Below, piece by piece: positions 36,833-60,700 of a stretch of 64,000 nt of DNA; the first letter of the stretch is position 1, and each line of letters starts with the position of its first letter. Position numbers and translations under genes: made by a program. The stretch lies in the NCBI RefSeq assembly GCF_040436345.1, contig NC_133235.1, positions 17,942,660-18,006,659 on the forward strand, given 5' to 3'. This stretch comes from Pagrus major (Eukaryota; Chordata; Actinopteri; Spariformes; Sparidae). Under the pieces are notes generated by a model. That model did no database searches, was not told where the DNA came from, and saw nothing but the letters and a program-made list of their open reading frames with translations.

Positions 36833-38200
36833 ATTTTTACTTTTATTTCCTATTTTCCTTTTTTTTAAATGATAATTTTTGTTTTACCTTTTGCTGCACC
36901 GCTGCTACTTAAGTGTATTGCTTTAAAAGGATGGTAATATCTTCTCTCATCAGAGCTGTGATGGCAGGACAGGACAGAAAGAGAAAAGAATCAACCCCAC
37001 ATAAGATAAAGGGGAAACACTGAACCCTTGTCAGCCCTTTTTCATCTGGATTTTTTTATTTTTTTAATTAATTGATTTATTTTTTATTCAACAAAAAAAA
37101 AACAGATAGAGCTGCCATCCTGAATCTTATGCACCAGCTAAAGATAAGCTACATAAAGCATTTACAGCTCAGTATGAAAGTCATTCTGACTGGGGTCAAA
37201 TAGCTTTTAAATCAGTACAGAAATCTGTCTTACCTTCAGTCCCTGCTTTGTTCCTCTGACCAGAGAGTCTGGAATCAGTCCAGTTTAAAATCCAGTCTTG
37301 TGGCTCCACACGCTGTGAACACACTTCTGAGAATGATGACTCAGAGAGTCCGTGAAAGAAGTCAAGTGACATGAGACAGAAACCAAATCACAGGCAAACC
37401 CTCTGCTTGAGGTGTTTATTGAGGAAACGATTTTTTGTCTTTTTAAACATGCAGGAACATGTTTACACTGACACAAAATCAGATATGTTGAAAGCATTTC
37501 AATAGCAGAGGATCAACACAACAATTAGTCTTACACATATGCCCATATAAAGTTGACTGTTTATGTAAGCTTGCATTTCTGTGAAATGCAAAAAAAAAAA
37601 CCCCATTGTATCTCAATAATGCAATATCATATGTATTTTGGAGGCACTTAAAGCAAGGACCTGTGGTGTCTTGTCCTGTGTTTATTTTTACATCCACACC
37701 CTTATTAATAACTGCACTGCAACTCAAGTGTTTTTTGAATGTTTCCTTCTGTTCTGGGTCCCCCAGAGGCCAAAGGTGGAGCTGCACCACCCAGTAACAG
37801 CCCTGATTGACAGAGGGAACCACATACTCAAGTCAGCGTAGAGAAAAGTACAGAAGCCCTGAGGGGCAGGTGAGAATTTTATTTTTCTGGTGATCCATTT
37901 TCTAAGTCTGATCTACATTATTTTCTCTCCTGTGTTTATGACTTGCGATCAAATGAAGAGAGAACAAAAGAAAGTTTTGAGAGGATAATCTTTCTAAGTT
38001 CCCTATTTTTTTTTCCATCTGTGAAAATGTAAAAAAAAACAAAAACAAAAACAATTCTGGAGAGACTTTTTTTGCTGAGTGAACTACACAGTTCCCCTCT
38101 AAAGACCAGTGTGATGGCAGAAACATATTGTTAAACCTGAAACAGAATATTTGATAACATCCATCTGTTTGTGTGCCAAGCAGAAAACCATACACAATAT
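36833..38200. other. Gene-free interval before the peptide array
   Basis: AT-rich, with A-runs at 37093, 37591 and 38029. Frames of 60-114 codons at 37479-37841 overlap on both strands and resemble nothing known. The block at 38085-38210 (AGACCAGTGTGATGG...GTGCCAAGCAGAAAACCATAC) is already array sequence, repeated downstream of genes A, C and F. Confidence 0.5.
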
Positions 38201-38372
38201 ATGATTTGAAAATCTTTTATTTAGTTAATAATCAAATTATTGCACATTACATAAGCACTTGAGCATACAGCGTATTCATCTCCACTCCTCCATGTAGCAT
38301 GGCGGACCTGGAAAGCTTGTTTTGAACTTGTGTCGTTTGAATGCAGCCGTGAAAGTGTCTGTTCCCATCATA

Positions 38373-38832
38373 TTACTGCAAGATGCTCTTTATTTCCTTA
38401 TGCCCCGGTCGGTCAGTGGTCTAAAGGGTTGAAGACAGAGAGAGACATACTTTAATTTAAACAACAACAAACTCATACAGCTGTCATCAAGTGATGAGCA
38501 CACTGAGAATTGAATTTCACTCAAACTACCGCACCAACCTGATCTACTCTGCCGAAAATGTTGCATGAACGTGGTCTTTTCAAACAGCCCAGCCAAAATC
38601 TGGGCTTCTGTGTTGCTGCCGGGCGTGGTTCCTACAATACAAAGTGAACAAATAAAGCATTAAATCCACAGAAAACCACCTTCTTCAGTCAGAGACCAGC
38701 AGTGGGTCTTCTTACCAGATCAAGAGGCAGTTTTTGATTATCTTCCACCAGAGCGGCTGCATCAGTAGCAGTGAAGGCTGTGATGAGCAGGAAAGACAGA
38801 CACAACAGGACCAGCAGCACACCTTTCTCCAT
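38373..38832 (-). CDS. Array gene A: putative secreted Cys-loop peptide precursor (85 aa, type I)
   Basis: Exons 38716-38832, 38539-38631 and 38373-38420, all phase 0. Residues 1-25 are a strong signal peptide (MEKGVLLVLLCLSFLLITAF...TDA). A short propeptide follows (VEDNQKLPLDL), lacking the RRLRPYL basic end found in other copies. Exon 2 encodes EPRPAATQKPR, then FWLGCLKRPRSCNIFGR and VDQ. The two cysteines are six residues apart, and G-R after NIF may be an amidation signal. The tail is TTDRPGHKEIKSILQ. The exon 2 donor GTTGGT is weak; GTAGAT after FGR is an in-frame alternative. TATA-like box 38870-38877, polyadenylation signal 38216-38221, both on the minus strand. Family unknown: a peptide hormone or a one-disulfide antimicrobial hairpin are both possible. 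Confidence 0.7.
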
Positions 38833-38869
38833 GGCTGATGAATTAAAGAGTCTGACACACACACAGGTC

Positions 38870-38877
38870 TTAATATA
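38870..38877 (-). promoter_or_regulatory. TATA box of gene A, conserved in all seven array genes
   Basis: TATATTAA on the minus strand lies about 40 bases before the ATG, preceded by CTCTTTTGTGGTTGG. The same box is at 41690-41697, 44391-44398, 48546-48553, 52649-52656, 54448-54455 and 59280-59287. A start of transcription 25-30 bases downstream would leave a 5' UTR of only about 10-20 bases. The roughly 100 bases before each ATG are nearly identical in all copies. Confidence 0.75.
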
Positions 38878-40357
38878 CTGAGTGCCAGCCAACCACAAAA
38901 GAGGAAGCAACAGCATACCAACTCTTTACATCATCAGAGAGACGTCAGGGAAAAGTTTAATGAGCCACACCTAAACAGAAACATAAGGCTTTTATTTTCT
39001 TGTTTTTTATTTGTATTGCTTTAATGTGATTTTGACCTCTTTAAAATCATTTTTATTCCTTTAACTTGTATTTATTCTCATTGACACTTTGTGGTTTGCA
39101 TTTAGTGTTTTTGCCTTCTTGTTTTAACTTCTCCTTAATCTGGTTTGGCTCAACAGTTGGGCGTTTACACTATAATGTCTTCCTGAGTGTCTGTCAAAGC
39201 ACTTTGTAAACTCTGTTTTTCTGTTTTTAATGGTGCTATATAAAATAAAATTATTAATAATATTTTTTGTTTGGGTTGTTTTATAGAAGTTGAAACAGTA
39301 TATTGCCTTAATTACATTGAATCTCAAGCATAACTTGGGAAATATCAAACTCAGAAAGTAGGTACCGCACAGAAATTCAACTTAACTTTTGACTAGAATA
39401 CTTTGATTACAACAATTTGCATTAATTGGCAAATTATAAACCGTTACTAAAATCACAAACAACTTTTTTTGTATTCAGCCTTCAATGTGAAAATCTAAAA
39501 ATACATTTTTTTAACATGTTACAATATTTAAGTTCAGACTCCTCAACAATGAACCATTTCACCTTTGATTGTCCACCACTGATGTGTGTGCTCATTACTG
39601 CTTTTTAATGTTGTATAAAGTACCCAAAAGTCATAAACAATTAAACTGGAACCCAGGTTGTTTACTTCTACTCCTTCAACGTCTCTCTCATGGCAGTTGA
39701 TCAAATATTTCAAACAAAAAAACAACATCTTCTTCTACTGTTTCACCAAACATGAACATCTACTGTTTAAAATGTGTGGGTATTTTGGCTGTTAGCGTGA
39801 TGTTTTTGAAAATTAAGTTTTTGTTTCAAGTTAAAAATTGATTCCTTCACACTGGCCACGATCAGCAGTCTTCTGAATGAAAGTCCTCTCCTTGTTATAA
39901 CTCTCCTCCCTCCCTACCTGGACTTGTGGTTCTTTATACTTCTACAGCTGTAATACCTAATAAAGCCACTAGAGGGCGCTGCCTAACAGGAAGCATAACT
40001 ATGGGTCGTTTTGACCTGCTTGCTTTTTCAACAAATATGGCCGTTTCCCTGAGGAGGGCACCCTGGATGTGGTTGTATCAGGGTGGCAGTGGTCCCCCCT
40101 GGCCACCCCTCAGGGGCACCACTGTCTGGAGTGCACACTTACTGTATTCCCTCACTTACAATGACATCAGGAGAAATTAGCCATTGTTATGAACAGCAAA
40201 CCACCTTTTGTTCAAAATCACTTGTATTAATCTATACAGTGACCCCAGACCACCAGTGCAAATAATGAACAATCATAAACACACAGTTTGAATCTACACT
40301 ACAGGAGCTCCATCATCAATAAACAGGCTTGTCAATGATCTTATTAGATTGAGAGTT

Positions 40358-40466
40358 ATTGTTGATCCTTTGCCACAAGAGCGGCTGCATCAGACACAAC
40401 AGGACAGCAGTACGAGTCTGTCCATGACCAAGAGTTTAATACAGTTGTGAAATACACAGGTCAGTA
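40358..40466 (-). pseudogene. Decayed exon-1 and promoter relic, 3' of gene B
   Basis: On the + strand GAGCGGCTGCATCAG continues directly into ACACAACAGGACAGCAG. In the intact exon 1 these words are separated by about 33 bases (signal-peptide codons). The match then fades through CCATGACCAAGAGTTTAATA and CACAGGTCAGTAT, which correspond to the start codon and TATA region. No exon 2 or 3 is visible beside it. Confidence 0.7.
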
Positions 40467-41191
40467 TCCACCCACTGCTGACCAATCTCCAGTACACACA
40501 GTAAACTGCTGCTGTGAAACATAAAGGCTGTCTGACTCCATCTAGTGGTCACGTTATGCAGCAATTAAATAAATAGAGTACATTAAACTACAGCAGACAC
40601 GACACAACATGTTTGCAGAGGTCTTTAATTCTTCTGTCCTGTTTCCTTCATTGATAAATTATTTAGGAACAGACATTTAATGAGAAATAGAGCGGAAATA
40701 AATGAATCACTCTGGAAGCAACAGACAAACTCCTGGAGAAAGAGCAAAGAGCAACACCTCCTGCTACACAGCTGAGTGTGTAAAGATTAATTAATTTATT
40801 AATATTAATGTTGTAAGTATTAAAATTTTGAGTTTGAATTTCCTTCTACATAGTACCCCTTTAAAGACCAGTGTGGTGGTAAAGTACAGAAACATATTGT
40901 TTAACCTGAATCAGAAACTTTGATGACATCCAACACATTTGCAGTTCGAGGCCGAGGAAATAACCTGAGGGATGAGACGTCTGCTGTCAGAGATTCTGTT
41001 TGTGTGCCAAGCAGAAAACCATACACAATATCTGATTAGAAATCTTTTATTTAGTAAAATATTAAAATGACTGCACATTACATAAGCACTTGAGCATACA
41101 GTATATTCATCTCCACTCCTTTACGTAGCATGGCGGCTGTGGAAAAGCTTGTTTTTCAGATGCAGCAGTGAAGGAGGCAGTTCCCATCGTG

Positions 41192-41652
41192 TTACTGTAA
41201 GGGGCTCTTCTTTTCCTTAGGCTTTAAACTGAACTGAGGGGATGGGCTTGGGCTTGGGCTAAAGGGTTAGAGACAGAGAGAGAGAGAGAGAGATACTTTA
41301 ATTTAAACAACTAACTCATAAACCAACTGTCATCAACCTTTTAAGATATCACCATTTCACTCAAAGTAAAGCAACAACCTTACCGTTTGCCAAAAAAGCG
41401 GCATCCCCCTGGTCTTTTCCAACAGCCCATCCATCCTCCCTACAATACAAAGTGAACAAATAAAGCATTAAATCCACAGAAAACCACCTTCTTCAGTCAG
41501 AGACCAGCAGTGGGTCTTCTTACCAGATAAGGACGCAGTCGTCCAGGTTGTTTTTGATTATCTTCCAACAGAGCGGCTGCATCAGTAGCAGTGAAGGCTG
41601 TGATGAGCAGGAAAGACAGACACAACAGGACCAGCAGCACACCTTTCTCCAT
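41192..41652 (-). CDS. Array gene B: putative secreted Cys-loop peptide precursor (83 aa, type II)
   Basis: Exons 41524-41652 (phase 0), 41384-41439 (ends phase 2 at a good donor CG|GTAAGG) and 41192-41258. The signal peptide is the same as in gene A, followed by LLEDNQKQPGRLRPYL. Exon 2 is short: GG, then WMGCWKRPGGCRFFGKR. The Cys-x6-Cys loop is followed by RFF-GKR, a textbook amidation and dibasic cleavage site. Exon 3, read in phase 2, gives a Ser/Pro-rich tail PSPSPSPQFSLKPKEKKSPLQ-stop (the R is split over the junction). TATA box 41690-41697; polyadenylation signal 41046-41051. This is the clearest prohormone-like member. Function unknown. Confidence 0.72.
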
Positions 41653-43892
41653 GGCTGATGAATTAAAGAGTCTGACACACACACAGGTCTTAATATACTG
41701 AGTGCCAGCCAACCACAAAAGAGGGAGCAACAGCATACCAACTCTTTATATCATCAGAGAGACGTCAGGGAAAAGTTTAATGAGCCACACCTTCACTGAA
41801 ACATAAGATTTTATGTTCTTGTGTTTTATTTGTATTGCTTTAATATGATTTTGACCTCTTTTTAAAAAAGAAAATGATTCCTTTTACTTGTATTTCTTCT
41901 CATTGACACTTTGTGGTTTGCATTTTGTCTTTTTGCCTTCTTGTTTTAACTTCTCCTTAATCTGGTTTGGCTCAACATTTGGGCGTTTACACTATAATGT
42001 CTTCCTGAATGTCTGTCAAAGCACTTTGTAAACTCTGTTTTTCTGTTTTTAACGGTGCTATATGAAATCAAATTATTAATAATATTTTGTGTTTGGGTTG
42101 TTTTATAGAGGTGGAAACAGTATATTGCCTTAATTACATTGAATCTCAAGCATAACTTGGGAAATATCAAACTCAGAAAGTAGGTACATACTGATGTGTG
42201 TGCACATTACTGCTTTTTAATGTTGTTTAAAGTACCCACAAGTCATAATTGAGTAAAAGTAAAGACAAAATATTAAAATATTACTTTGGTAAAAGTGAAA
42301 GTCACCCATTCAAACAATATTTGAGTTAAAGTCATAAAGTATCTGATATTAAATGTACTTAAGTATCAAAAGTACAAGTGAAAGTAAATAACACATATAT
42401 TTACATTCATGTATTGTACGTACTGTATATTATGGGTCAACTATGGGATCTGATATTCAGCGTTTTTCTGATTATCAGAATTAGTGTTTGTTTAATCAAA
42501 TTGCAAATAAAAAATATTAATATAAAAATGCACTTTGGCTATGATGCAGCCTGTAATCTGTAAAATAACAAGTACCTAAAGTATCAGATAAAGTAGTGGA
42601 TTAAAAGTACAATATCTGCCTCCAAAATATATGGAGTGGAAGTATAAAGTAGCAGAAAATGGAAATACTCAAGTAAAAATGTACAGTCCTTGAGTAAATG
42701 TACTTAGTTACATTCCATCACTGCTGTTTTAAAAACTTTACATCCTTTGAGTATCACAGTGTTACAGTCAGCTCCCAGTGTGAGTCTGTTGTTCTTGGTG
42801 ACTTCAGTGGTTTTAGTATTAATGTTTAGTTGTTGGGTGGCTGACAAACAGTTGTAGCAACAGTTTGCAGTTCTGACATGGACTGTTTCTTCATTCCTCT
42901 GCACTTTCGCAGTGATTTAACCACACGTTATGTTGTCGTAATCTAAGCATTTGCACCACCGGCCAGTTTCTGGAACCCAGGTTGTTTACTTCTACTCCTT
43001 CACAGTTCCTCTCATGATGATCGACCAAATATTTCAAACAAAAAAAAAACATTTCAAACTGAGGGTGAGAGCCACCTGTGTGCCCTTCCCCACCTCTTTT
43101 AAGCCTTCACAAAAAGGGTGTCATCACACCATGATTGGCTGGGAGGGAAATGTCCCAAGCTGCTTCCACTCCTCAATCAGGAGTCAGTCTCCTCACCCTG
43201 TGCACAGGTGATCTGAATCCCCTGCAACTAGGCTTGAGGGATTTTGGAAAATCAGCCCAAAAAGGAAAGACAGTAAGTCTCAAACAATGGGACTGCTACA
43301 CACTAACATCTACTGTTTAAAATGTGTGGGTATTTTGGCTGTTAGTGTGATGTTTTTGAAAATTAAGTTTTTGTTTATTATTATTTTGTTTGTCATCAGT
43401 GAAAATGGATGAATGTGATTATCAAAGCTGGTGGATGGTTTACACCCTGTTCTCACAAAATAAAAAAAATCTGAGTTTGTATTATTACCTCATTCATATT
43501 GTATATATTAAAATTCCAAGTTTGAATTTCTTTTCCAAAACTACACAGTTCCCCTCTAAAGACCAGTGTGATGGTAGAGACATATTGTTTAACCTGAAAC
43601 AGAAAATTTGATGACATCCAACACATTTACAGCTTGAGGCCGAGGAAATAACCTGAGGGATGAGACATCCGCTGTCAGAGATTGTGTTTGTGTGCCAAGC
43701 AGAAAACCATACACAATATCTGATTAGAAAATCTTTTATTTAGTTAATTATCAAATTATTGCACATTACATAAGCACTTGAGCATACAGCGTATTCATGT
43801 CCACTCCTCTATGTAGCATGGCGGACCTGGAAAAGCTTGTTTTGAACTTCTGCCGTTTGAATGCAGCCGTGAAAGCGTCTGTTCCCAACATG

Positions 43893-44353
43893 TTACTGCA
43901 AGATGCTCTTTATTTCCTTAAGCTGTTGGTCTTTGGTCTAAAGGGTTGAAGACAGAGAGAGATACTTCAATTTAAAAAACAGCAATCTCATACAGCTGTC
44001 ATCAAGTGATGAGCACATTGAGAATTGAATTTCACTCAAACTTAAGCAGCAACCTTTTCTTTTTTGCCGAAAAGGTTGCATCCCCCTGGTCTTTGCCAAC
44101 AGCCCAGCCAACATCTGCGTTTCACTGCCGGGCGTCGTCCCTACAATACAGAGTGAACAAATAAAGCATTTAATCAACAGAAAACCACCTTCTTCAGTCA
44201 GAGACCAGCAGTGGGTCTTCTTACCAGATAAGGACGCAGTCGTCGTGGTTGTCGTTGATTATCTTCCACCAGAGCGGCTGCATCAGTAGCAGTGAAGGCT
44301 GTGATGAGCAGGAAAGACAGACACAACAGGACCAGCAGCACACCTTTCTCCAT
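43893..44353 (-). CDS. Array gene C: putative secreted Cys-loop peptide precursor (86 aa, type I)
   Basis: Exons 44225-44353, 44054-44140 and 43893-43937, all phase 0. After the signal peptide comes LVEDNQRQPRRLRPYL. Exon 2 encodes GRRPAVKRR, then CWLGCWQRPGGCNLFGKK and EK. KRR before and GKK after would release a 15-residue amidated peptide. Here Phe is replaced by a third Cys (TGT against TTC in G), leaving an unpaired cysteine that could allow dimers. The tail is TKDQQLKEIKSILQ. The donor AAG|GTTGCT is weak; without splicing the frame stops after KKEKVAA. TATA box 44391-44398; polyadenylation signal 43735-43740. Confidence 0.68.
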
Positions 44354-47196
44354 GGCTGATGAATTAAAGAGTCTGACACACACACAGGTCTTAATATACT
44401 GAGTGCCAGCCAACCACAAAAGAGGAAGCAACAGCATACCAACTCTTTACATCATCGGAAAGATGTCAGTGAAAAGTTTAATGAGCCAGACCTAAACAGA
44501 AACATAAGATTTTATGTTCTTGTTTTTATTTGTATTGCTTTAATGTGATTTTGACCTTTTAAAATCATTTTTATTCCTTTTACTTGTATTTATTCTCATT
44601 GACACTTTGTGGTTTGCATTTAGTGTTTTTGCCTACTTGTTTTAACTTCTCCTTAATCTGGTTTGGCTCAACATTTGGGCGTTTACACTATAATGTCTTC
44701 CTGAATGTCTGTCAAAGCACTTTGTAAACTCTGTTTATCTGTTTTTAACGGTGCAATATAAAATAAGATTATTAATAATATTTTTTTTTTGGGTTGTTTT
44801 GTAGAGGTGGAAACAGTATATTGCCTTAATTACATTGAATCTCAAGCATAACTTGGGAAATATCAAACTCAGAAAGTAGGTACAGCAGAAATTCAACTTA
44901 GATTTTGACCAGAATACTTTGATTACAAGAATTTGCATTAATTGGCAAATTATAAACCTTTACTAAAATCAAAAACAACTTTTTTTGTATGCAGCCTTCA
45001 ATGTGAACATCTTAAAATATATATATTTTAAACATGTTACAAAATTTAAGTTCAGACTCCTCAACAATGAACCATTTCACCTTTGATTGTCCACCACTGA
45101 TGTGTGTGCTCATTACTGCTTTTTAATGTTGTATAAAGTACCCAAAAGTCATAAACTTTGGGTTTGCATTTTGTGTTTTTGCCTTCTTGTTTTAACTTCT
45201 CCTTAATCTGGTTTGGCTCAACATTTGGGCGTTTACACTATAATGTCTTCCTGAGTGTCCTACTTTTACTCTGTCAAAGCACTTTGTAAACTCTGTTTTT
45301 CAGTTTTTAACGGTGCTATATAAATAAAATTATTAATAATATTTTGTGTTTGGGTTGTTTTATTTTTTTATTTTTTACTTTTGCTCTGTTTATGAATACT
45401 GATAACATGTTACAATATTTAAGTTCAGACTCCTCAACAATGAACCTTTTCACCTTTGATTGTCCACCACTGATGTGTGTGCACATTGCTGCTTTTTAAA
45501 GTACCCACAAGTCATAATTGAGTAAAAGTAAAGACAAAATATTAAAATATTACTTTGGTAAAAGTGAAAGTCACCCATTCAAACAATATTTGAGTTAAAG
45601 TCATAAAGTATCTGATATTAAATGTACTTAAGTATCAAAAGTACATAGTAAGTAAGTATAGTAAGTAAATAAAACATATTTGCATTCATGTATTGTACGT
45701 ACTGTATATTATGGGTCAACTATGGGATCTGATATTCAACATTTTTCTGATTATCAGAATTAGTGTTTGTTTAATCAAATTGCAAATAAAAAAATATTAA
45801 TATAAAATGCACTTTGGCTATGATGCAGCCTGTAATCTGTAAAATAACAAGTACCTGAAGTATCAGATAAAGTAGTGGAGTAAAAGTACAATATCTGCCT
45901 CCAAAATATATGTAGTGGAAGTATAAAGTAGCAGAAAATGGAAATACTCAAGTAAAAATGTACAGTCCTTGAGTAAATGTACTTAGTTACATTCCATCAC
46001 TGCTGTTTTAAAAACTTTACATCCTTTGAGTATCACAGTGTTACAGTCAGCTCCCAATGTGAGTCTGTTGTTCTTGAAGGTGACTTCAGTGGTTTTAGTA
46101 TTAATGTTTAGTTGTTGGGCGGCTGACAAACAGAAGTTGTCATAGCAACAGTTTGCAGTTCTGACATGGACTGTTTCTTCATTCCTCTGCACTTTCGCAG
46201 TGATTTAACCACACGTTATGTTGTCATAATCTAAGCATTTGCACCACCGGCCAGTTTCTGGAACCCAGGTTGTTTACTTCTACTCCTTCACAGTTCCTCT
46301 CATGATGATTGACCAAATATTTCAAACAAAAAAAACCCATTTCAAACTGAGGGTGAGAGCCACCTGTGTGCCCTTCCCCACCTCTTTTAAGCCTTCACAA
46401 AAAGGGTGTCATCACACTATGATTGGCTGGGAGGGAAATGTCCCAAGCTGCTTCCACTCCTCAATCAGGAGTCAGTCTCCTCACCCTGTGCACAGGTGAT
46501 CTGAATCCCCTGCAACTAGGCTTGAGGGATTTTGGAAAATCAGCCCAAAAAGGAAAAACAGTAAGTCTCAAACAATGGCACTGCTACACACTAACATCTA
46601 CTGTTTAAAATGTGTGGGTATTTTGGCTGTTAGTGTGATGTTTTTGAAAATTAAGTTTTTGTTTCAAGTTAAAAATTGATTCCTTCACACTGGCCACGAT
46701 CAGCAGTCTTCTGAATGAAAGTCCTCTCCTTGTTAAAACTCTCCTCCCTCCCTACCTGGACTTGTGGTTCTTTATACTTCTACAGCTGTCATACCTAATA
46801 AAGCCACTATAGGGCGCTGCCTAACAGGAAACATAACTATGGGTCGTTTTGACCTGCTTGCTTTTTCAACAAATATGGCCGTTTCCCTGAGGAGGGCACC
46901 CTGGATGTGGTTGTATCAGGGTGGCAGTGGTCCCCCCTGGCCACCCCTCAGGGGCACCACTGTCTGGAGTGCACACTTACTGTATTCCCTCACTTACAAT
47001 GACATCAGGAGAAATTAGCCATTGTTATGAACAGAAAACCACCTTTTGTTCAAAATCACTTGTATTAATCGATACAGTGACCCCAGACCTACAGTGCAAA
47101 TAATGAACAATCATAAACACACAGTTTGAATCTACACTACAGGAGCTCCATCATCAATTAACAGGCTTGTCAATGATCTTATTAGATTGAGAGTTA

Positions 47197-47305
47197 TTGT
47201 TGATCCTTTGCCACACGAGCGGCTGCATCAGACACAACAGGACAGCAGTACGAGTCTGTCCATGACCAAGAGTTTAATAGAGCTGTGAAATACACAGGTC
47301 AGTAT
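47197..47305 (-). pseudogene. Decayed exon-1 relic, 3' of gene D
   Basis: GAGCGGCTGCATCAGACACA joins AACAGGACAGCAG with the same inner gap as at 40358-40466, so the decay came before the unit was copied. Confidence 0.68.
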
Positions 47306-48040
47306 CCACCCACTGCTGACCAATCTCTAGTACACACAGTAAACTGCTGCTGTGAAACATAAAGGCTGTCTGACTCCATCTAGTGGTCACGTTATGCAGC
47401 ACTTAGGATAAATAGAGTACATTAAACTACAGCAGACACGACACAACATGTTTGCAGAGATCTTTAATTTTTCTGTCCTGTTTCCTTCATTGATAAATTA
47501 TTTAGGAACAGACATTTAATGAGAAATAGAGCGGAAATAAATGAATCACTCTGGAAGCAACAAACAAACTCCTGGAGAAAGAGCAAAGAGCAACACCTCC
47601 TGCTACACAGCTGAGTGTGTAAAGATTAATTAATTTTAATTAATTAATTAATATTAATATTATCAGTATTAAAATTCTGAGTTTGAATTTCCTTCTACAT
47701 AGTACCCCTTTAAAGACCAGTGTGGTGGTAAAGTACAGAAACATATTGTTTAACCTGAATCAGAAACTTTGATGACGTCCAACACATTTGCAGTTTGAGG
47801 CCGAGGAAATAACCTGAGGGATGAGACGTCTGCTGTCAGAGATTCTGTTTGTGTGCCAAGCAGAAAACCATACACAATATCTGATTAGAAATCTTTTATT
47901 TAGTAAAATATTAAAATTACTGCACATTACATAAGCACTTGAGCATACAGTATATTCATCTCCACTCCTTTACGTAGCATGGCGGCTGTGGAAAAGCTTG
48001 TTTTTCAGATGCAGCAGTGAAGGAGGCAGTTCCCATCGTG

Positions 48041-48508
48041 TTACTGTAAGGGGCTCTTCTTTTCCTTAGGCTTTAAACTGAACTGAGGGGATGGCAGTTT
48101 GGGCTTGGGCTAAAGGGTTAGAGACAGAGAGAGAGAGAGAGAGATACTTTAATTTAAACAACTAACTCATACAGCTGTCATCAAGTGATGAGCACATTGA
48201 GAACTGAATTTCACTCAAACTAAAGCAGCAACCTTATCTTTCATGAAGAAATTGTTGCATCCCCCTGGTCTTTGCCAACAGCCCATCCATCGTCCCTACA
48301 ATACAAAGTGAACAAATAAAGCATTTAATCAACAGAAAATCACCTTCTTCAGTCAGAGACCAGCAGTGGGTCTTCTTACCAGATAAGGACGCAGTCGTTG
48401 TGGTTGTCGTTGATTATCTTCCACCAGAGCGGCTGCATCAGTAGCAGTGAAGGCTGTGATGAGCAGGAAAGACAGACACAACAGGACCAGCAGCACACCT
48501 TTCTCCAT
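48041..48508 (-). CDS. Array gene D: putative secreted Cys-loop peptide precursor (86 aa, type II)
   Basis: Exons 48380-48508, 48233-48295 and 48041-48109, phase 0 throughout. The propeptide end is QRQPQRLRPYL. Exon 2 encodes GR, then WMGCWQRPGGCNNFFMK and DK. It keeps the loop but has lost the Gly-Lys amidation signal. The good donor GTAAGG of B and E reads ATAAGG here, so GTTGCT further on must serve. Exon 3 has an extra in-frame stretch (PKPKLPSPQFSLKPKEKK, then SPLQ). The phase change at the donor and the length change in exon 3 compensate, keeping the family tail. TATA box 48546-48553; polyadenylation signal 47895-47900. Possibly weakened, but open. Confidence 0.62.
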
Positions 48509-51301: not shown

Positions 51302-51393
51302 AATGATCAGCTGCATCAGACACAACAGGACAGCAGTACGAGTCTGTCCATGACCAAGAGTTTAATAGAGCTGTGAAATACACAGGTCAGTAT
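51302..51393 (-). pseudogene. Decayed exon-1 relic, 3' of gene E
   Basis: CAGCTGCATCAGACACAACA followed by GGACAGCAG is the same relic as at 40358-40466. About 30 bases are also missing at its left side, where CAATGATC joins AGCTGCATC. Confidence 0.66.
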
Positions 51394-52117
51394 CCACCCA
51401 CTGCTGACCAACCTCCAGTACACACAGTAAACTGCTGCTGTGAAACATAAAGGCTGTCTGACTCCATCTAGTGGTCACGTTATGCAGCACTTAAATAAAT
51501 AGAGTACATTAAACTACAGCAGACACAACACAACATGTTTGCAGAGATCTTTAATTTTTCTGTCCTGTTTCCTTCATTGATAAATTATTTAGGAACAGAC
51601 ATTTAATGAGAAATAGAGCGGAAATAAATGAATCACTCTGGAAGCAACAAACAAACTCCTGGAGAAAAAGCAAAGAGCAACACCTCCTGCTACACAGCTG
51701 AGTGTGTAAAGGTGAATTAATTTATTAATATTAATATTGTAAGTATTAAAATTCTGAGTTTGAATTTCCTTCTACATAGTACCCCTTTAAAGACCAGTGT
51801 GGTGGTAAAGTACAGAAACATATTGTTTAACCTGAATCAGAAACTTTGATGACATCCAACACATTTGCAGTTCGAGGCCGAGGAAATAACCTGAGGGATG
51901 AGACATCTGCTGTCAGAGATTCTGTTTGTGTGCCAAGCAGAAAACCATACACAATATCTGATTAGAAATCTTTTATTTAGTAAAATATTAAAATTACTGC
52001 ACATTACATAAGCACTTGAGCATACAGTATATTCATCTCCACTCCTTTACGTAGCATGGCGGCTGTGGAAAAGCTTGTTTTTCAGATGCAGCAGTGAAGG
52101 AGGCAGTTCCCATCGTG

Positions 52118-52187
52118 TTACTGTAAGGGGCTCTTCTTTTCCTTAGGCTTTAAACTGAACTGAGGGGATGGGCTTGGGCTAAAGGGT

Positions 52188-52256
<69 letters not shown>

Positions 52257-52610
52257 TAATTTAAACAACAAACTCATAAACCAACTGTCATCAACCTTTT
52301 AAGATATCAACATTTCACTCAAAGTAAAGCAACAACCTTACCGTTTGACCCAAAAGCGGCATCCCCCTGGTCTTTTCCAACAGCCCATCCATCCTCCCTA
52401 CAATACAAAGTGAACAAATAAAGCATTAAATCCACAGAAAACCACCTTCTTCAGTCAGAGACCAGCAGTGGGTCTTCTTACCAGATAAGGACGCAGTCGT
52501 CGTGATTGTCGTTGATTATCTTCCACCAGGGCGGCTGCATCAGTAGCAGTGAAGGCTGTGATGAGCAGGAAAGACAGACACAACAGGACCAGCAGCACAC
52601 CTTTCTCCAT
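52118..52610 (-). CDS. Array gene E: putative secreted Cys-loop peptide precursor (81 aa, type II)
   Basis: Exons 52482-52610, 52342-52397 (phase 2, donor CG|GTAAGG) and 52118-52178. The propeptide ends QRQSRRLRPYL. Exon 2 encodes GG, then WMGCWKRPGGCRFWVKR, so the F-G-K of gene B is W-V-K and amidation is lost while a basic pair remains. The tail in phase 2 is PSPSPQFSLKPKEKKSPLQ. Intron 2 carries a long (AG)n run at 52189-52253, read as (CT)n just before the acceptor. TATA box 52649-52656; polyadenylation signal 51972-51977. Confidence 0.66.
52189..52253. repeat. (AG)n microsatellite at the intron-2 acceptor of gene E
   Basis: About 32 AG units, against clearly shorter runs at the same place in the other genes (for instance about 41276-41293 in B). 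On the gene strand this is the polypyrimidine tract of the exon 3 acceptor, so its length may affect splicing. Confidence 0.9.
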
Positions 52611-53950
52611 GGCTGATGAATATTAAGAGTCTGACACACACACAGGTCTTAATATACTGAGTGCCAACCAACCACAAAAGAGGAGGCAACAGCATACCAA
52701 CTCTTTACATCATCAGAAAGAAGTCAGGGAAAAGTTTAATGAGCCAGACCTTCACTGAAACACAAGATTTTATGTTCTTGTTTTTTATTTGTATTGCTTT
52801 AATGTGATTTTGACCTCTTTTAAAATCATTTTTATTCCTTTTACTTGTATTTATTCTCATTGACACTTTGTGGTTTGCATTTAGTGTTTTTGCCTTCTTG
52901 TTTTAACTTCTCCTTAATCTGGTTTGGCTCAACAATTGGGCGTTTACGCTATAATGTCTTCCTGAGTGTCTTACTTTTGCTCTGTCTGTCAAAGCACTTT
53001 GTAAACTATGTTTTTCTGTTTTTAACGGTGCTATATAAAATAAAATTATTAATAATATTTTGTGTTTGGGTTGTTTTATAGAGGTGAAAACAGTATATTG
53101 CCTTAATAACATTGAATCTCAAGCATAACTTGGGAAATATCAAACTCAGAAAAGTATACAGCACAGAAATTCAACATCAACCCATGATTGGCTGGGAGGG
53201 AAATGTCCCAAGCTGCTTCCACTCCTCTATCAGGAGTCAGTCTCCTCACCCTGTGCACAGGTGATCTGAATCCCCTGCAACTAGGCTTGAGGGATTTTGG
53301 AAAATCAGCCCAAAAAGGAAAAACAGTAAGTCTTAAACAATGGCACTGCTACACACTAACATCTACTGTTTAAAATGTGTGGGTATTTTGGCTGTTAGTG
53401 TGATGTTTTTGAAACTTAAGTTTTTATTTATTATTATTTTGTTCGTCATCAGTGAAAATGAGATGAATGTGATTATCAAAGCTGGTAAATGGTTTACACC
53501 TTGTTCTGACAAAAAAAAATCAAAAAAATCAGAGTTTGTATTATTACCTAATTCATATTGTATATATTAAAATTCCAAGTTTGAATTTCTTTTCCAAAAC
53601 TACAGAGTTCCCCTCTAAAGACCAGTGTGATGGTAGAAACATATTTTTAAACCTGAAACAGAAAATTTGATAACATCCAACGCATTTGCAGTTCGAGGCC
53701 GAGGAAATAACCTGTGGGATGAGACATCTGCTGTCAGAGATTCTGTTTGTGTGCCAAGCAGAAAACTATACACAATATCTGATTAGAAAATCTTTTATTT
53801 AGTTAATAATCAAATTATTGCACATTACATAAGCACTTGAGCATACAGCGTATTCATGTCCACTCCTCTATGTAGCATGGTGGACCTGGAAAGCTTGTTT
53901 TGAACTTCTGCCGTTTGAATGCAGCCGTGAAAGCGTCTGTTCCCAACATG

Positions 53951-54410
53951 TTACTGCAAGATGCTCTTTATTTCCTTAAGCTGTTGGTCTTTGGTCTAAA
54001 GGGTTGAAGACAGAGAGAGATACTTTAATTTAAACAACAACAAACTCATTCAGCTGTCATCAAGTGATGAGCACACTGAGAATTGAATTTCACTCAAACT
54101 AAAGCAGCAACCTTTTCTTTTTTGCCGAAGAGGTTGCATCCCCCTGGTCTTTGCCAACAGCCCAGCCAACATCTGCGTTTCACTGCTGGGCGTCGTCCCT
54201 ACAATACAAAGTGAACAATAAAGCATTTAATCCACAGAAAACCACCTTCTTCAGTCAGAGACCAGCAGTGGGTCTTCTTACCAGATAAGGACGCAGTCGT
54301 CGTGGTTGTTGTTGATTATCTTCCACCAGAGCAGCTGCATCAGTAGCAGTGAAGGCTGTGATGAGCAGGAAAGACAGACACGACAGGACCAGCAGCACAC
54401 CTTTCTCCAT
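53951..54410 (-). CDS. Array gene F: putative secreted Cys-loop peptide precursor (86 aa, type I)
   Basis: Exons 54282-54410, 54112-54198 and 53951-53995, phase 0. The protein is nearly identical to gene C: GRRPAVKRR, then CWLGCWQRPGGCNLFGKK and EK, tail TKDQQLKEIKSILQ. The propeptide differs (DNQQQPRRLRPYL). The two exon 2 differences from C are third-position changes in this frame (CCG/CCA for Pro, CTT/CTC for Leu), which supports the reading frame and its constraint. It shares the weak GTTGCT donor and the extra Cys. TATA box 54448-54455; polyadenylation signal 53794-53799. Confidence 0.68.
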
Positions 54411-56871
54411 GGCTGATGAATTAAAGAGTCTGACACACACACAGGTCTTAATATACTGAGTGCCAACCAACCACAAAAGAGGAAGCAACAGCATACCAAC
54501 TCTTTACATCATCAGAGAGACGTCAGGGAAAAGTTTAATGAGCCAGACCTTCACTGAAACATACGATTTTATTTTCTTGTTTTTTATTTGTATTGCTTTA
54601 ATGTGATTTTGACCTCTTTAAAAATCATTTTTATTCCATTTACTTGTATTTCTTCTCATTGACACTTTGTGGTTTGCATTTAGTGTTTTTGTGTACTTGT
54701 TTGAACTTCTCCTTAATCTGGTTTGGCTCAACAGTTGGGCGTTTACACTATAATGTCTTCCTGAGTGTCTTACTTTTGCTCTGTCTGTCAAAGCACTTTG
54801 TAAACTCTGTTTATCTGTTTTTAATGGTGCTATATAAAATAAAATAAGTAATAATATTTTTTGTTTGGGTTGTTTTGTAGAGGTGGAAACAGTATATTGC
54901 CTTAATTACATTGAATCTCAAGCATAACTTGGGAAATATCAAACTCAGAAAGTAGGTACAGCAGAAATTCAATTTAGATTTTGACCAGAATACTTTGATT
55001 ACAAGAATTTGCATTAATTGGCAAATTAAAAACCTTTACTAAAATCACAAACAACTTTTTTTGTATTCAGCCTTCAATGTGAACATCTAAATATATATAT
55101 ATTTTAAACATGTTACAATATTTAAGTTCAGACTCCTCAACAATGAACCATTTCACCTTTGATTGTCCACCGCTGATGTGTGTGCTCATTACTGCTTTTT
55201 AATGTTGTATAAAGTACCCACAAGTCATAAACTTTGGGTTTGCATTTAGTGTTTTTGCCTTCTTGTTTTAACTTCTCCTTAATCTGGTTTGGCTCAACAT
55301 TTGGGCGTTACACTATAATGTCTTCCTGAGTGTCTGTCAAAGCACTTTGTAAACTCTGTTTATCTGTTTTTAACGGTGCTTTATAAATAAAATTATTAAT
55401 AATATTTTGTGTTTGGGTTGTTTTATTTTTTTTATTTTTACTTTTGCTCTGTTTATGAATACTGATAACATGTTACAATATTTAAGTTCAGACCCCTCAA
55501 CAATGAACCATTTCACCTTTGATTGTCCGCTACTGATGTGTGTGCACATTACTGCTTTTTAAAGTACCCACAAGTCATAATTGAGTAAAAGTAAAGATAT
55601 CATATTAAAATATTACTTTGGTAAAAGTGAAAGTCACCCATTCAAACAATATTTGAGTTAAAGTAATAAAGTATCTGATATAAATGTACTTAAGTATCAA
55701 AAGTACAAGTGAAATTAAATAAAAACATTTACATTCATGTATTGTACGTACTGTATATTATGGGTCAACTATGGGATCTGATATTCAACATTTTTCTGAT
55801 TATCAGAATTAGTGTTTGTTTAATCAAATTGCAAATAAAAAAATATTAATATAAAAATGCACTTTGGCTATGATGCAGCCTGTAATCTGTAAAATAATAA
55901 GTACCTAAAGTATCAGATAAAGTAGTGGAGTAAAAAGTACAATATCTGCCTCCAAAATATATGGAGTGGAAGTATAAAGAAGCAGAAAATGGAAATACTT
56001 AAGTAAAAATGTAGTCCTTGAGTAAATGTACTTAGTTACATTCCATCACTGCTGTTTTAAAAACTTTACATCCTTTGAGTATCACAGTGTTACAGTCAGC
56101 TCCCAGCGTGAGTCTGTTGTTCTTGAAGGTGACTTCAATGGTTTTAGTATTAATGTTTAGTTGTTGGGCGGCTGACAAACAGTTGTCGTAGCAACAGTTT
56201 GGACTGTTTCTTCATTCCTCTGCACTTTCGCAGTGATTTAACCACACGTTATGTTGTCGTAATCTAAGTATTTGCACCACCGGTCAGTTTCTGGAACCCA
56301 GGTTGTTTACTTCTACTCCTCCACAGTTCCTCTTATGATGGTTTATCAAATATTTCAAACAAAAAAAAACATTTCAAACTGAGGGTGAGAGCCACCTGTG
56401 TGCCCTCCCCCCCCTTTTTAAGCCTTCACAAAAAGGGAGCCATCACACCATGATTGGCTGGGAGGGAAATGTCCCAAGCTGCTTCCACTCCTCTATCAGG
56501 AGTCAGTCTCCTCACCCTGTGCACAGGTGATCTGAATCCCCTGCATCTAGGCTTGAGGGATTTTGGAAAATCAACCCAAAAAGGAAAGACAGTAAGTCTC
56601 AAACAATGGCACTGCTACACACTAACATCTACTTTTTAAAATATGTGGGTGTTTTGGCTGTTAGCGTGATGTTTTTGAAAATTAAGTTTTTGTTTTCATT
56701 TAAAAATTGATTCCTTCACACTGGCTACGATCAGCAGTCTTCTGAATGAAAGTCCTCTCCTTGTTATAACTCTCCTCCCTCCCTACTTGGACTTGTGGTT
56801 CTTTATACTTCTACAGCTGTAATACCTAATAAAGCCACTAGAGGGCTCTGCCTAACAGGAAGCATAACCGT

Positions 56872-57573
56872 GGCTGTGTCCAAATTCAGGGGCTGCAGCC
56901 CACGAAGGGCGCATTTGAAGGCCAATTACGTCACAACGCTGCGCGAAGGCTGTCCAAATTCGAAGGCTGCTCCACATGCAGCCCACAAATGCAGCCTTCC
57001 CCACCCTCGTTTAGGAGGACGCACCGCTACTATCCTTCGCGGCCTCACATATCCCAAGATCCTTTGCGCACCGCTGCTCAGTCCCGAAACAGAAGAGGAA
57101 GCAAGAGAAAATGGCGACATCAAGTGGCGCAGACATGACATTTAAATTTAAGTAATGGGTTTATACTCGGTTTTTACTCATTTGAACATCCAACGCCAGA
57201 TATGTTAAACTTCAAGAGACTATAAAACCTCCAAAGTTTAACTTTCAGTTAAAATGCGTGACGCTGGTACTGCTGTGGTAAATATAGTTGTTAATCACCA
57301 ATGGGTTAATGTTTATTTTGTAATGTTGATAATTCAATTCAGATTTGACACATTGTACACACACAAATAAATGTACACGTTTGATAGATTTGAACCAAAA
57401 CAGACTTTAATGCATGAACACCTGGTGACGCAACCAGGAAATACTCCGAAGGCTAGACCGTCCCATTTAACAACGGTGGCTGCAGCCTTCAAGGTCTCTC
57501 TGAAGGACCCGGCCTCCGTGGGCCGCAAAGGCCGCGTCCTTGAAGACTGCAGCCCCTGAATTTGGACACAGCC
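56872..57573. mobile_element. Non-autonomous DNA transposon inserted in the last array unit
   Basis: The ends GGCTGTGTCCAAATTCAGGG...GCAGCC and, in reverse complement, the same word with one mismatch form terminal inverted repeats of about 29 bases. Other units read AGCATAACTATGGG across the site, so this 702-bp segment is a clean extra. The inside is CpG-rich with repeated GAAGGCTGC words. Target duplication is unclear and no transposase frame is seen, so I leave the superfamily open. Confidence 0.8.
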
Positions 57574-57931
57574 TATGGGTAGTTTTGACCTGCTTGCATT
57601 TTCAACAAATATGGCCGTTTCCCTGAGGAGGGCACCCTGGATGTGGTTGTATCAGGGTGGCAGTGGTCTCCCCTGGCCACCCCTCAGGGACACCACTGTC
57701 TGGAGTGCACACTTACTGTATTCCCTCACTTACAATGACATCAGGAGAAATTAGCCATTGTTATGAACAGAAAACCACCTTTTGTTCAAAATCACTTGTA
57801 TTAATCTATACAGTGACCCCAGACCACCAGTGCAAACAGTGAATAATCAAAAACACACAGTTTGAATCTACACCACAGGAGCTCCATCATCAATTAACAG
57901 GCGTGTCAATGATCTTATTAGATTGAGAGTT

Positions 57932-58042
57932 ATTGTTGATCCTTTGCCACAAGAGCAGCTGCATCAGACACAACAGGACAGCAGTACGAGTCTGTCCATG
58001 ACCAAGAGTTTAATAGAGCTGTGAAATACACAGGTCAGTATC
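57932..58042 (-). pseudogene. Decayed exon-1 relic, 3' of gene G
   Basis: AGAGCAGCTGCATCAGACAC then AACAGGACAGCAG: the fourth copy of the exon-1 relic, at the same distance (about 0.8 kb) downstream of a type II gene as the others. Confidence 0.68.
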
Positions 58043-58794
58043 CACCCACTGCTGACCAATCTCTAGTACACCAGTAAACTGCTGCTGTGAAACATAAAGG
58101 CTGTCTGACTCCATCTAGTGGTCACGTTATGCAGCACTTAAATAAATAGAGTACATTAAACTACAGCAGACACGACACAACATGTTTGCAGAGGTCTTTA
58201 ATTCTTCTGTCCTGTTTCCTTCATTGATAAATTATTTAGGAACAGACATTTAATGAGAAATAGAGCGGAAATAAATGAATCACTCTGGAAGCAACAGACA
58301 AACTCCTGGAGAAAGAGCAAAGAGCAACACCTCCTGCTACACAGCTGATTGTGTAAAGATGAATTAATTTTAATTAATTAATATTAATATTGTAAGTATT
58401 AAAATTCTGAGTTTGAATTTCATCTACATAGTACCCCTTTAAAGACCAGTGTGGTGGTAAAGTACAGAAACATATTGTTTAACCTGAATCAGAAACTTTG
58501 ATGACATCCAACACATTTGCAGTTCGAGGCCGAGGAAATAACCTGAGGGATGAGACATCTGCTGTCAGAGATTCTGTTTGTGTGCCAAACAGAAAACCAT
58601 ACACAATATCTGATTAGAAATCTTTTATTTAGTAAAATATTAAAATGACTGCACATTACATAAGCACTTGAGCATACAGTATATTCATCTCCACTCCTTT
58701 ACGTAGCATGGCGGCTGTGGAAAAGCTTGTTTTTCAGATGCAGCAGTGAAGGAGGCAGTTCCCATCGTGTTACTGTAAGGGGCTCTTCTTTTCC

Positions 58795-59242
58795 TTAGGC
58801 TTTAAACTGAACTGAGGGGATGGGCTTGGGCTAAAGGGTTAGAGAGAGAGATACTTTAATTTAAACAACAAACTCATAAACCAACTGTCATCAACCTTTT
58901 AAGATATCACCATTTCACTCAAAGTAAAGCAACAACCTTACCTTTACTCTGCCGAAAAGGTTGCATCCCCTTGGTCTTTTCCAACAGCCCAGCCAGAATC
59001 TGCGTTTCACTGCCGGGCGTCGTCCCTAAAAAAACAAAGTGAACAAATAAAGCATTAAATCCACAGAAAACCACCTTCTTCAGTCAGAGACCAGCAGTGG
59101 GTCTTCTTACCAGATAAGGACGCAGTCGTCGTCGTGATTGTCGTTGATTATCTTCCACCAGAGTGGCTGCATCAGTAGCAGTGAAGGCTGTGATGAGCAG
59201 GAAAGACAGACACAACAGGACCAGCAGCACACCTTTCTCCAT
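58795..59242 (-). CDS. Array gene G: putative secreted Cys-loop peptide precursor (83 aa, type II with type I-like core)
   Basis: Exons 59111-59242, 58942-59025 and 58795-58830, phase 0, with a good donor AAG|GTAAGG. The propeptide ends RQSRRRLRPYL. Exon 2 encodes GRRPAVKRR, then FWLGCWKRPRGCNLFGR and VK: long and type I-like. It keeps Phe where C and F have Cys, and is close to gene A, so this may be the ancestral core. The 3' UTR and exon 3 are type II. Because the junction is phase 0, exon 3 is read in another frame than in B, D and E and ends early (PKPIPSVQFKA). TATA box 59280-59287; polyadenylation signal 58624-58629. Confidence 0.68.
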
Positions 59243-59399
59243 GGCTGATGAATTAAAGAGTCTGACACACACACAGGTCTTAATATACTGAGTGCCAGCC
59301 AACCACAAAAGAGGAAGCAACAGCATACCAATTCTTTACATCATCAGAGAGACGTCAGGGAAAAGTTTAATGAGCCACACCTAAACAGAAACATAAGAT

Positions 59400-60700
59400 T
59401 TTAGCACAATAGGTAAATGAGACAACATTTTCTGGACTTTCTTGAAATGAGATAACTAACATGTTCAATGTCACAATTTTAAATGTGTTTTTTCCAGCAT
59501 ATGCAGTGTGAGTGCATGGATCTGAACATGTGATAGAGGCATGGCATCGAGGAAATTGCACCAACAACCGCTTTTATTGTAAAATAATGAGGAAGAACCA
59601 CTGAAATGAATGAATGAAATTAAGAAACACCAGGAAATAAATTTACCCAACCATCCTGTGTTTTGAAATCAATCACAGTAACAAGAAACAGAAATAAGGG
59701 TGATTTTCCATGCAGCCACAGTGTCTCACATCAGCAAATTTTACTGTATATATTTTCACTGAATGACACAACAGCAGAGCAGAGTTCTGCTTCACCTGCG
59801 GAAAGTCACTAAGAGACACAAAACAAACAAAAACAGACACAAAAAAATCCTTTACTTGTCCTGAAAATGGGGACATTTCTTTGTTACAGCAGCCAAAGGT
59901 CAGGAATATCACAATAAACAATAATCCAAATAAAAAATAAACAATATAATAAAATAAAAAGATAAGAAATAGAATAGACGTGTTTATACATAATATTTAC
60001 AATATGAACAGTGTAATTGTACACAGTGTGGGCAGCGTATTTTTATTTACAATATAATAAATATGGGTATAAAAATTGTCCAGTTAGTGCAAACCAAAGT
60101 GAGAATGAGGATATGGGATATGTGTAGAGTTTGAGTTTAGAGTAAATGAACACAGTATATGTGTCACATGTTTCTGTCACCATGTAAGGGTTTTTTGATG
60201 GAGGGTCTAAGGAAAGATGTTTTCCTGTATGTGACTGTATGTGAGCTCTGACACAGACTTTTACCAGTCTGCACTCTCTCATGTTAGTGTGTTGGAATTG
60301 GAGTTATTGCACCACCAACCAGTTCCTACAAAATAATGGGCAGGCATCACCAAAAGAAAAGAAAAGAAAAGGAAAGGAAAGAAGACTCTGTCCGCCTTGT
60401 CTACTCCTTTACAGTCCCTCTGAACACGTATGACTCAATATCTACTTCTACTCTTTCACCAAACTTTTCACCAATATTTTCAAGATGACATCGGTACAAT
60501 TTCCAGCCGTGTTTGTAGAGACAGAAATTGGATATTTAAGTCAAAACACAACCTTTTCCTCACCCTGACAAGCTGTTTTTTGTGCCTAAACCTAACCGGA
60601 GCACAAGCACAGCGTTGTCAAAACATAAAATAGAAAACTGAACCTAAAGAATCGTAAAGTTGCAACATAAAAAGTGTAAAATGTCAACGTATCTGTGGAG
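59400..60700. other. Gene-free interval between the array and myrip
   Basis: AT-rich and without a credible gene. It contains A-rich low-complexity DNA (59930-59975) and a purine stretch AAAAGAAAAGAAAAGGAAAG at 60354-60382. Array similarity stops near 59400, right after the promoter of gene G. Confidence 0.6.

Follow-up and report, generated by a model that had tools for sequence, protein, structure and literature searches.

The question raised by this locus is what kind of product is encoded by a row of seven small genes in a 64,000-nucleotide stretch of Pagrus major DNA (the window). The original prediction, made from the letters alone, had described a seven-gene tandem array, and this observation is confirmed by core pattern matches, exon 1, TATA box and polyadenylation signal in all seven copies. 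A degenerate core pattern (up to three mismatches) matched seven times in the window, always on the minus strand and inside 38.2-59.3 kb; 100 shuffles gave a mean of 0.23 matches and two at the most. With one precursor as query against the whole genome, 10 of 10 scored matches fell in the array. Scanning the window with Rfam and for tRNA genes gave zero hits in each case. A FYVE_2 gene and a chemokine-receptor gene lie beside the array.

All seven genes lie on the minus strand and are given here with exons 1, 2 and 3 in that order. Gene A (38373..38832) has exons at 38832-38716, 38631-38539 (core FWLGCLKRPRSCNIFGR) and 38420-38373, a TATA box at 38877 and AATAAA at 38221. Gene B (41192..41652) comprises 41652-41524, 41439-41384 (a short form of exon 2, GGWMGCWKRPGGCRFFGK) and 41258-41192, with TATA at 41697 and AATAAA at 41051, and gene C (43893..44353) comprises 44353-44225, 44140-44054 (RRCWLGCWQRPGGCNLFGK) and 43937-43893, with TATA at 44398 and AATAAA at 43740. 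The short form of exon 2, here lacking an amidation site, recurs in gene D (48041..48508; exons 48508-48380, 48295-48233 with GRWMGCWQRPGGCNNFFMK and 48109-48041; TATA 48553, AATAAA 47900) and gene E (52118..52610; exons 52610-52482, 52397-52342 with GGWMGCWKRPGGCRFWVK and 52178-52118; TATA 52656, AATAAA 51977). Gene F (53951..54410; exons 54410-54282, 54198-54112 and 53995-53951; TATA 54455, AATAAA 53799) has the same core as gene C, and gene G (58795..59242) has exons at 59242-59111, 59025-58942 (RRFWLGCWKRPRGCNLFGR) and 58830-58795, TATA at 59287 and AATAAA at 58629. Four relic copies of exon 1, with approximate ends, are interspersed on the same strand: one from an MDR-type family member, with an early stop and resembling exon 1 of the relatives P0006 and P0007, downstream of gene B (40356..40425), a second copy downstream of gene D (47194..47263), a third, shorter one downstream of gene E (51310..51351) and a fourth downstream of gene G (57930..57999). 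Further upstream, at some 1.8 kb from gene G, minus-strand positions 61054..61176 match residues 17-56 of the family member P0036 from Chaetodon auriga (tblastn, 71% identity, E 1.7e-10) and perhaps represent the same locus or a common upstream exon.

The common promoter that had been proposed is present, with a TATA box 45-46 bases upstream of the ATG in every gene; exon 1 starts with GCCATGG before each of the seven cores, and AATAAA follows 601-633 bases after the ATG in all copies. The motif TGTGGTT occurs in seven and an exact TTCCTC in five of the seven promoters, which we take to be RUNX-like and, in reverse, PU.1-like, respectively; these motifs carry little weight since the seven near-identical copies are not independent. 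Intron 1 is in phase 0 throughout, with donor CTG/GTAAGA and acceptor TAG; five genes have intron 2 in phase 0 and the other two, B and E, in phase 2. Three genes (B, E and G) have the intron-2 donor GTAAGG. The remaining four (A, C, D and F) have a weak GTTGCT or GTTGGT instead, which leaves the C-termini in the array less certain; the core lies wholly within exon 2 and is untouched by this doubt. The exon 3 frame of gene G differs from that of B, D and E. Of the earlier argument that every copy stays open through introns whose phases join, joinable introns stand in all seven genes; open reading by itself is weak evidence, because a random stretch of 84 bases with the composition of the introns has a 20% chance of staying open. 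Stronger evidence for genes comes from relatives that are annotated and have this signal exon and this loop.

A near-identical exon predicted to encode a signal peptide (VLLVLLCL..FLLITAFT.TDAA, alignment A2) is common to all seven genes, and the core WxGC[WL][KQ]RPxxC occurs in exon 2 of each, both as originally described. Two cysteines are found in the core, and genes C and F add a third directly before it. Gly-Lys or Gly-Arg, which the original prediction had named together with basic sites, follows the core in A, B, C, F and G but not in D and E. The motif Phe-Gly-Lys/Arg is found in five of the seven window genes as well as in Perca P0012 and the zoarcid P0013, P0014, P0017 and P0025. Bounded by hand, the predicted window peptides are 15-23 residues long with three to five aromatic residues and a charge of +2 to +5, a range that treats all seven as amidated and would otherwise be one lower for D and E. 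Structure models, of low confidence, disagree on the fold: the exon-2 peptide modelled alone, as a 30-mer whose last two residues are intron-coded, has a strand on either side of the loop (mean pLDDT 67), and a family-wide model has no strand at the core (mean pLDDT 61).

The statement that the core matches no named peptide family was upheld within Pfam, the PDB and the literature searched. Four precursors gave no accepted match among those listed from Pfam at E<=10, the PDB search returned no match to the precursors, and their sequence strings were without a match in the literature text searched. Piscidin, LEAP-2 and beta-defensin were absent among the Pfam matches listed for the four precursors (E<=10) and for 18 relatives (E<=1). 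In the portions of PMC13001179, PMC11868651 and PMC12997841 available to us, a percomorph C-x-x-R-P-G-[GA]-C family is not described. Pecbloodin of mudskipper was set aside as a relative, the peptide printed in the accessible part of PMC12997841 looking unrelated.

Uncharacterised homologues were found in percomorph fishes. An alignment search that scored the 8000 candidates sharing most words, with the window's own as the one eukaryotic genome searched, yielded at least 27 named relatives from 16 species, all uncharacterised and one labelled semaphorin-4G-like; the 14 lineages looked up all belong to the Percomorphaceae. The earlier interpretation stands as regards a real family with a predicted secretion signal, a prohormone-like layout and no named match, and needs correcting in that the family extends beyond these seven genes. 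A family limited to sparids and a few unnamed contigs, as a first search had indicated and a second had extended by two more exon-1 fragments, was overturned by adding MDR-type exon-1 rows. The loop of the wider family is mostly C-x-x-R-P-G-[GA]-C, in many cases with the amidation signal xxFG[KR] after it, and W-x-G-C-[WL]-[KQ]-R-P is the form that it takes locally. The C-x6-C loop is present in all seven window genes and in 20 of the 27 named relatives and absent in seven. Among 32 six-residue loops, R is third in 22, P fourth in 25 and G fifth in 28, and the first two inner positions are highly variable among the loops listed. Two to three loops per precursor occur in P0009, P0010 and P0011, with three in one tuna and one damselfish. 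Of 26 slices taken around the loop in relatives, 23 have a positive net charge and three are neutral or negative, values inflated by the processing-site residues that the slices take in. In a comparison bearing on the position of intron 1, made with the protein entries of the relatives, the unspliced P0006, P0007 and P0020 read VRR[TL][TI]AGH past exon 1, the window VRRPTAGL. Consecutive locus numbers of the Perca and Zoarces entries suggest tandem copies there too.

Exon 1 (codons 1-33) has pN 0.012 and pS 0.021. For exon 2, a descriptive pooling of 21 non-independent pairs gives pN 0.180 and pS 0.111, with pN exceeding pS in 16. Gene-like repeats without a product, i.e., decaying or unexpressed copies, are a very improbable explanation: relic exon-1 copies within the array, weak intron-2 donors in four of the seven genes and the loss of loop cysteines in several relatives speak for decay, but the low exon 1 pN and the retention of ATG, frame, intron-1 sites, TATA box and polyadenylation signal in every copy argue against it, as do nine of the 27 named relatives annotated as alternative isoforms, an annotation that often rests on transcript reads. 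Compared with intron 1 and the 3' flank taken together, exon 2 is more divergent (p<0.05) in 13 of the 21 pairs and fails to be so in eight; among pairs with a common 3'-end type, the excess is found in eight of nine. Divergence of exon 2 exceeds that of intron 2 in only nine of 21 pairs and not in B-E, C-F and D-G, which have a common 3' type, and conversion between old exon-2 forms could account for part of the exon-2 excess. Mean identity is 71% in the signal exon (28 residues), 58% in the loop (eight residues) and 20% beside it (11 residues), based on 78 pairs of 13 proteins picked by us from seven species, a comparison biased by relatives having been found largely via the signal exon.

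In our reading, the array encodes members of a new family, namely putatively one-disulfide peptides that diversify rapidly. At the level of sequence, the locus comprises a TATA promoter, a conserved signal-like exon and a single intron-bounded exon with a cysteine loop, in tandem copies with recombined segments, and percomorph relatives retain the signal and, for the most part, the frame of the loop and change the remainder. The original prediction had left both a hormone and an antimicrobial role open. The pattern of constant signal and variable mature part favours a role in defence, and we put at roughly one in two the probability that the products of the array are secreted precursors of small host-defence peptides with one disulfide, acting as direct antimicrobials or as immune modulators. 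The same evolutionary signature occurs in reproductive and venom peptides, and peptides that serve mating, signalling in the skin or some other rapidly evolving interaction unrelated to immunity would also account for it. A weak match of two of 18 relatives to the chi-conotoxin profile (best E 0.0033) points the same way; the Pfam match of P0012 scores 13.4, under the curated 27, and we regard this explanation as improbable.

The main rival to host defence is a percomorph signalling family, hormone or cytokine-like, whose amidated cyclic peptides would be ligands of a G-protein-coupled receptor. Basic cleavage sites, a one-disulfide loop and a glycine amide donor in five of the seven window genes form a prohormone layout such as defines neuropeptides and peptide hormones, and Thunnus has multi-loop precursors; the layout is not decisive for a hormone because amidated antimicrobial peptides have it as well. 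The low identity beside the loop, the wide variation of its first two inner positions, the missing amidation site in D and E and seven variants at a single locus, which is unusual for a hormone, make signalling rather unlikely.

If the products are host-defence peptides, the signal peptide would be removed and the prodomain cleaved next to the basic residues (KRR, RR) that precede the core. The two core cysteines, with six residues between them, would then form a disulfide, and the loop so closed would enclose a turn of R-P-G or R-P-R. Gly-Lys or Gly-Arg would be converted into a C-terminal amide in five of the seven, e.g., FWLGCWKRPRGCNLF-amide with a net charge of about +4. With its different members, the array would provide several variants at once, and the turnover of exon 2 would track changing microbial targets. 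With slightly less assurance than for the array itself, we propose that these cyclic and partly amidated defence peptides form a family not described so far, which arose at or near the base of the Percomorphaceae and diversified via a dedicated loop exon, by gene copies, swapped exon-2 forms and the three loops per precursor in tuna and damselfish. Provided that the peptides are produced, a secreted family that within our searches lacks a name, a profile and a reported test is present in many perch-like fishes, among them farmed species. The concrete prediction is short cyclic amidated peptides, open to synthesis, assay and search in mucus, plasma and gill peptidomes.

Among known systems, the closest are the unnamed homologues, i.e., AB9X84_000784 and AB9X84_002030 of Acanthopagrus schlegelii, PFLUV_G00134210-30 of Perca fluviatilis, VZT92_003847-49 of Zoarces viviparus and LOC122993417 of Thunnus albacares. 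Percomorph homologues agree with the window genes in the signal exon, and 20 of the 27 named ones also in the C-x6-C loop, but differ in a mostly MDK or MDR start, one extra signal residue, other loop flanks and, in some, several loops or lost cysteines. AB9X84 goes unmentioned in the available part of the black seabream genome paper (PMC11868651). Four precursors gave no Pfam match to hepcidin, and the two core cysteines of the array genes (three in C and F) fall short of eight. The genes of fish hepcidins also have three exons, are about as large and have expanded in percomorphs, with the mature peptide in exon 3, whereas the array has its two to three cysteines around the core in exon 2. 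Mature hepcidin contains eight cysteines in four disulfides (PMC13001179, in part).

Another comparable system is thanatin, a one-disulfide hairpin of insects, to which no sequence relation was found; for the array peptides a hairpin is a candidate fold, given by one model and absent from the other. The thanatin loop likewise has six residues. Thanatin has one disulfide and is cut from a proprotein (PMC13001179, in part). Ranacyclins are short, with one disulfide and a C-terminal amide (PMC13001179, in part). Like these and the tigerinins, the beta-hairpin antimicrobial peptides of frog skin, the predicted array peptides are short with one disulfide; no homology was found, and the former come from frogs, not fishes. 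Loop size, sequence and signal of both differ from those of the array, and ranacyclin sequences have a GCW start and a basic-Pro loop. These two features, size and the predicted amide give the array peptides a resemblance to ranacyclins, some of which inhibit proteases (PMC13001179, in part). Short serine-protease inhibitors like frog-skin Bowman-Birk peptides or ranacyclins, which block trypsin-like proteases by means of a basic residue within a hairpin closed by a disulfide, are nevertheless a doubtful explanation for the array. None of the loops listed contains Thr-Lys-Ser-x-Pro-Pro, the inhibitory motif of Bowman-Birk peptides; the array loop has six residues between the cysteines, and Pro usually comes next after the basic residue, making a poor scissile bond. 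Set beside the ranacyclin format of a single disulfide, 17-20 residues and an amide, the array sequence allows the amide in five of seven genes and a hand-bounded length of 15-23 residues. The proposed percomorph family of defence peptides would be a fish counterpart of the frog-skin peptide families.

The seven genes A to G are arranged head-to-tail on the minus strand at about 38.2 to 59.3 kb, and the core pattern WxGC[WL][KQ]RPxxC of exon 2 is matched seven times in the window vs. a mean of 0.23 times in shuffled sequence. Upon querying the whole genome (786 Mb, 25 contigs) with one precursor, all 10 scored matches fell inside the array, a number that refers to the best candidates and that diverged copies could escape. 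All seven genes feature a TATA box at -45/-46, the start context GCCATGG around the ATG and AATAAA in the same context, with introns of 83-85 and 111-163 bases. B, E and G have a strong intron-2 donor; the other four genes (A, C, D, F) have a weak one, which renders exon 3 less certain; the exon-3 end KEIKSILQ (A, C, F) is similar to KEIKSVLQ of P0002, an annotated protein from black seabream (Acanthopagrus schlegelii). Gene E carries a CT microsatellite ahead of the intron-2 acceptor (about 52252-52190) that is expanded relative to the corresponding runs of the other genes. We consider it very improbable that no product is made.

Two types of 3' end occur, type I in A, C and F vs. type II in B, D, E and G. 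A broken exon 1 is located downstream of each of the four type-II genes, and the starts of these relics resemble those of relatives P0006 and P0007 with MDR-type signal exons. In the simplest reading, an ancestral unit of type-II gene, relic and type-I gene would have been present in four copies, one type-I gene having been lost. In segment alignments, the form of exon 2 does not track the type of 3' end: gene G joins a long exon 2 to a type-II end, while in gene D, with its short exon 2, intron 2 begins type-I-like and finishes type-II-like. Segments have thus recombined. The stretch separating genes G and F contains an insertion of ~0.7 kb (minus strand, about 57.57-56.87 kb) with the inverted ends GGCTGTGTCCAAATTCAGGGGCTGCAG and its complement, and the parallel unit at about 50.97 kb has no such insertion; judged by eye, it is MITE-like and would have arrived after duplication of the unit.

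Pooled raw differences among the genes amount to 2.6% for intron 1, 4.0% for exon 1, 18.1% for exon 2, 16.5% for intron 2, 19.3% for exon 3 and 10.9% for the 3' flank, the high values for intron 2 and 3' flank being due for the most part to divergence between the two 3' types. For exon 2, nonsynonymous differences (pN, 0.180) exceed synonymous ones (pS, 0.111) when pooled over 21 pairs and in 16 of these individually, while codons 1-33 of exon 1 yield 0.012 and 0.021, respectively; the pairs share genes and are non-independent, and these figures are descriptive. In eight of the nine pairs of the same 3' type, C-F being the exception, exon 2 differed more (p ≤ 0.015) than intron 1 and flank combined; of all 21 pairs, 13 showed this excess at p < 0.05 and eight fell short. 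The picture is weaker against intron 2, which exon 2 surpasses in only nine of 21 pairs and not in the same-type pairs B-E, C-F and D-G. Diversifying selection may account for the exon-2 excess, and so may conversion among old forms of this exon.

The closest annotated proteins are those from black seabream. A single-sequence search retrieved two seabream proteins and three fragments, an 8-row alignment two further fragments and an 11-row alignment 39 proteins at E ≤ 10, 27 of them with species names (16 species); P0039 (E 0.64), one of the 39, was left out of the relatives. All 14 species looked up belong to the Percomorphaceae, and the other two fall into the same genera. Database names read 'uncharacterized' or 'hypothetical', with one protein labelled semaphorin-4G-like. 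Unspliced sequence past the end of exon 1 reads VRRTTAGH in P0006 and P0007, VRRLIAGH in P0020 and VRRPTAGL in the window, and this resemblance suggests the same position of intron 1.

The C-x6-C loop is present in 20 of the 27 named relatives and absent from P0023, P0025, P0026, P0030, P0031, P0032 and P0036; in P0027 and P0033 it represents a later loop, the cysteines of the earlier one having been lost. Signal exon and glycine-rich core are retained, but one or both cysteines of a loop are gone, in P0026, P0027, P0030, P0031, P0032, P0033 and P0036, which come from eelpouts, groupers, snappers and butterflyfishes. Precursors from Thunnus (P0011) and Stegastes (P0010) contain three loops and that from Scomber (P0009) two; the 32 six-residue loops listed stem from window and relatives together, with two P0010 loops outside the list. 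Among 13 hand-chosen proteins (four window genes, three from Perca, two from Lycodopsis and one each from Zoarces, Pampus, Lates and Collichthys), which form 78 pairs, the signal exon averaged 71% identity (28 residues), the loop 58% and the flanks 20% (11 residues), in a comparison that takes in within-species pairs, under-scores MEK vs. MDK signals as it is ungapped, and is biased toward a conserved signal because relatives were found largely via signal-exon words.

A domain scan of six individual reading frames in the window assigned leucine-rich repeats to 0.5-0.9 kb and, below cut-off in both cases, E2F CC-MB pieces to sites near 17.6 and 20.1 kb. It also indicated a single-exon, chemokine-receptor-like 7tm_1 receptor beside the array (32147-33283, minus strand; best PDB relatives CCR9 and CCR7) and the start of FYVE_2 near 62.8 kb, and gave no domain match for the reading frame at 23.2 kb. 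Candidate names for the neighbors are LRRCC1, E2F5, ACKR4/CCR and MYRIP. The upstream part of P0036 from Chaetodon matches a conserved stretch upstream of gene G (61054-61176, minus strand), which suggests that P0036 and the array occupy the same locus. This stretch, in which no clear donor site was seen by eye, may represent a distal first exon, or it may belong to the promoter region of the neighboring gene.

The array precursors combine a secretion signal-like exon, a loop exon, basic sites and positive charge, with Gly-Lys/Arg in five of the seven genes. The precursors would be cleaved, closed by a disulfide and C-terminally amidated, and the peptides may be secreted at barrier surfaces and act on microbes or leukocytes. 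We assign a defence role a probability of about 0.5. A signalling function is considered less likely; signal and loop scaffold stay constant while the residues around them change, a pattern that fits a one-receptor hormone less well than it fits defence peptides, without being proof. Protease inhibition is improbable as a role for these looped peptides, and other roles are equally so.

The searches placed the peptides in no known family. Pfam yielded a single match, under cut-off, for four window precursors, and for 18 relatives it returned matches to seven families (threshold E ≤ 1, lowest value 0.0033), with UPF0542 in eight and chi-conotoxin in two; for the first of these relatives, for which the cut-off was compared, all three matches lay under it. 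PDB gave no match at E ≤ 10 for one precursor or an 18-row profile, and none of 16 sequence strings and six gene identifiers matched in literature largely confined to papers free of subscription. In the sections covered of a review on beta-hairpin antimicrobial peptides, nothing resembles the array peptides, and the fish entries are hepcidins and a trout cathelicidin fragment (PMC13001179).
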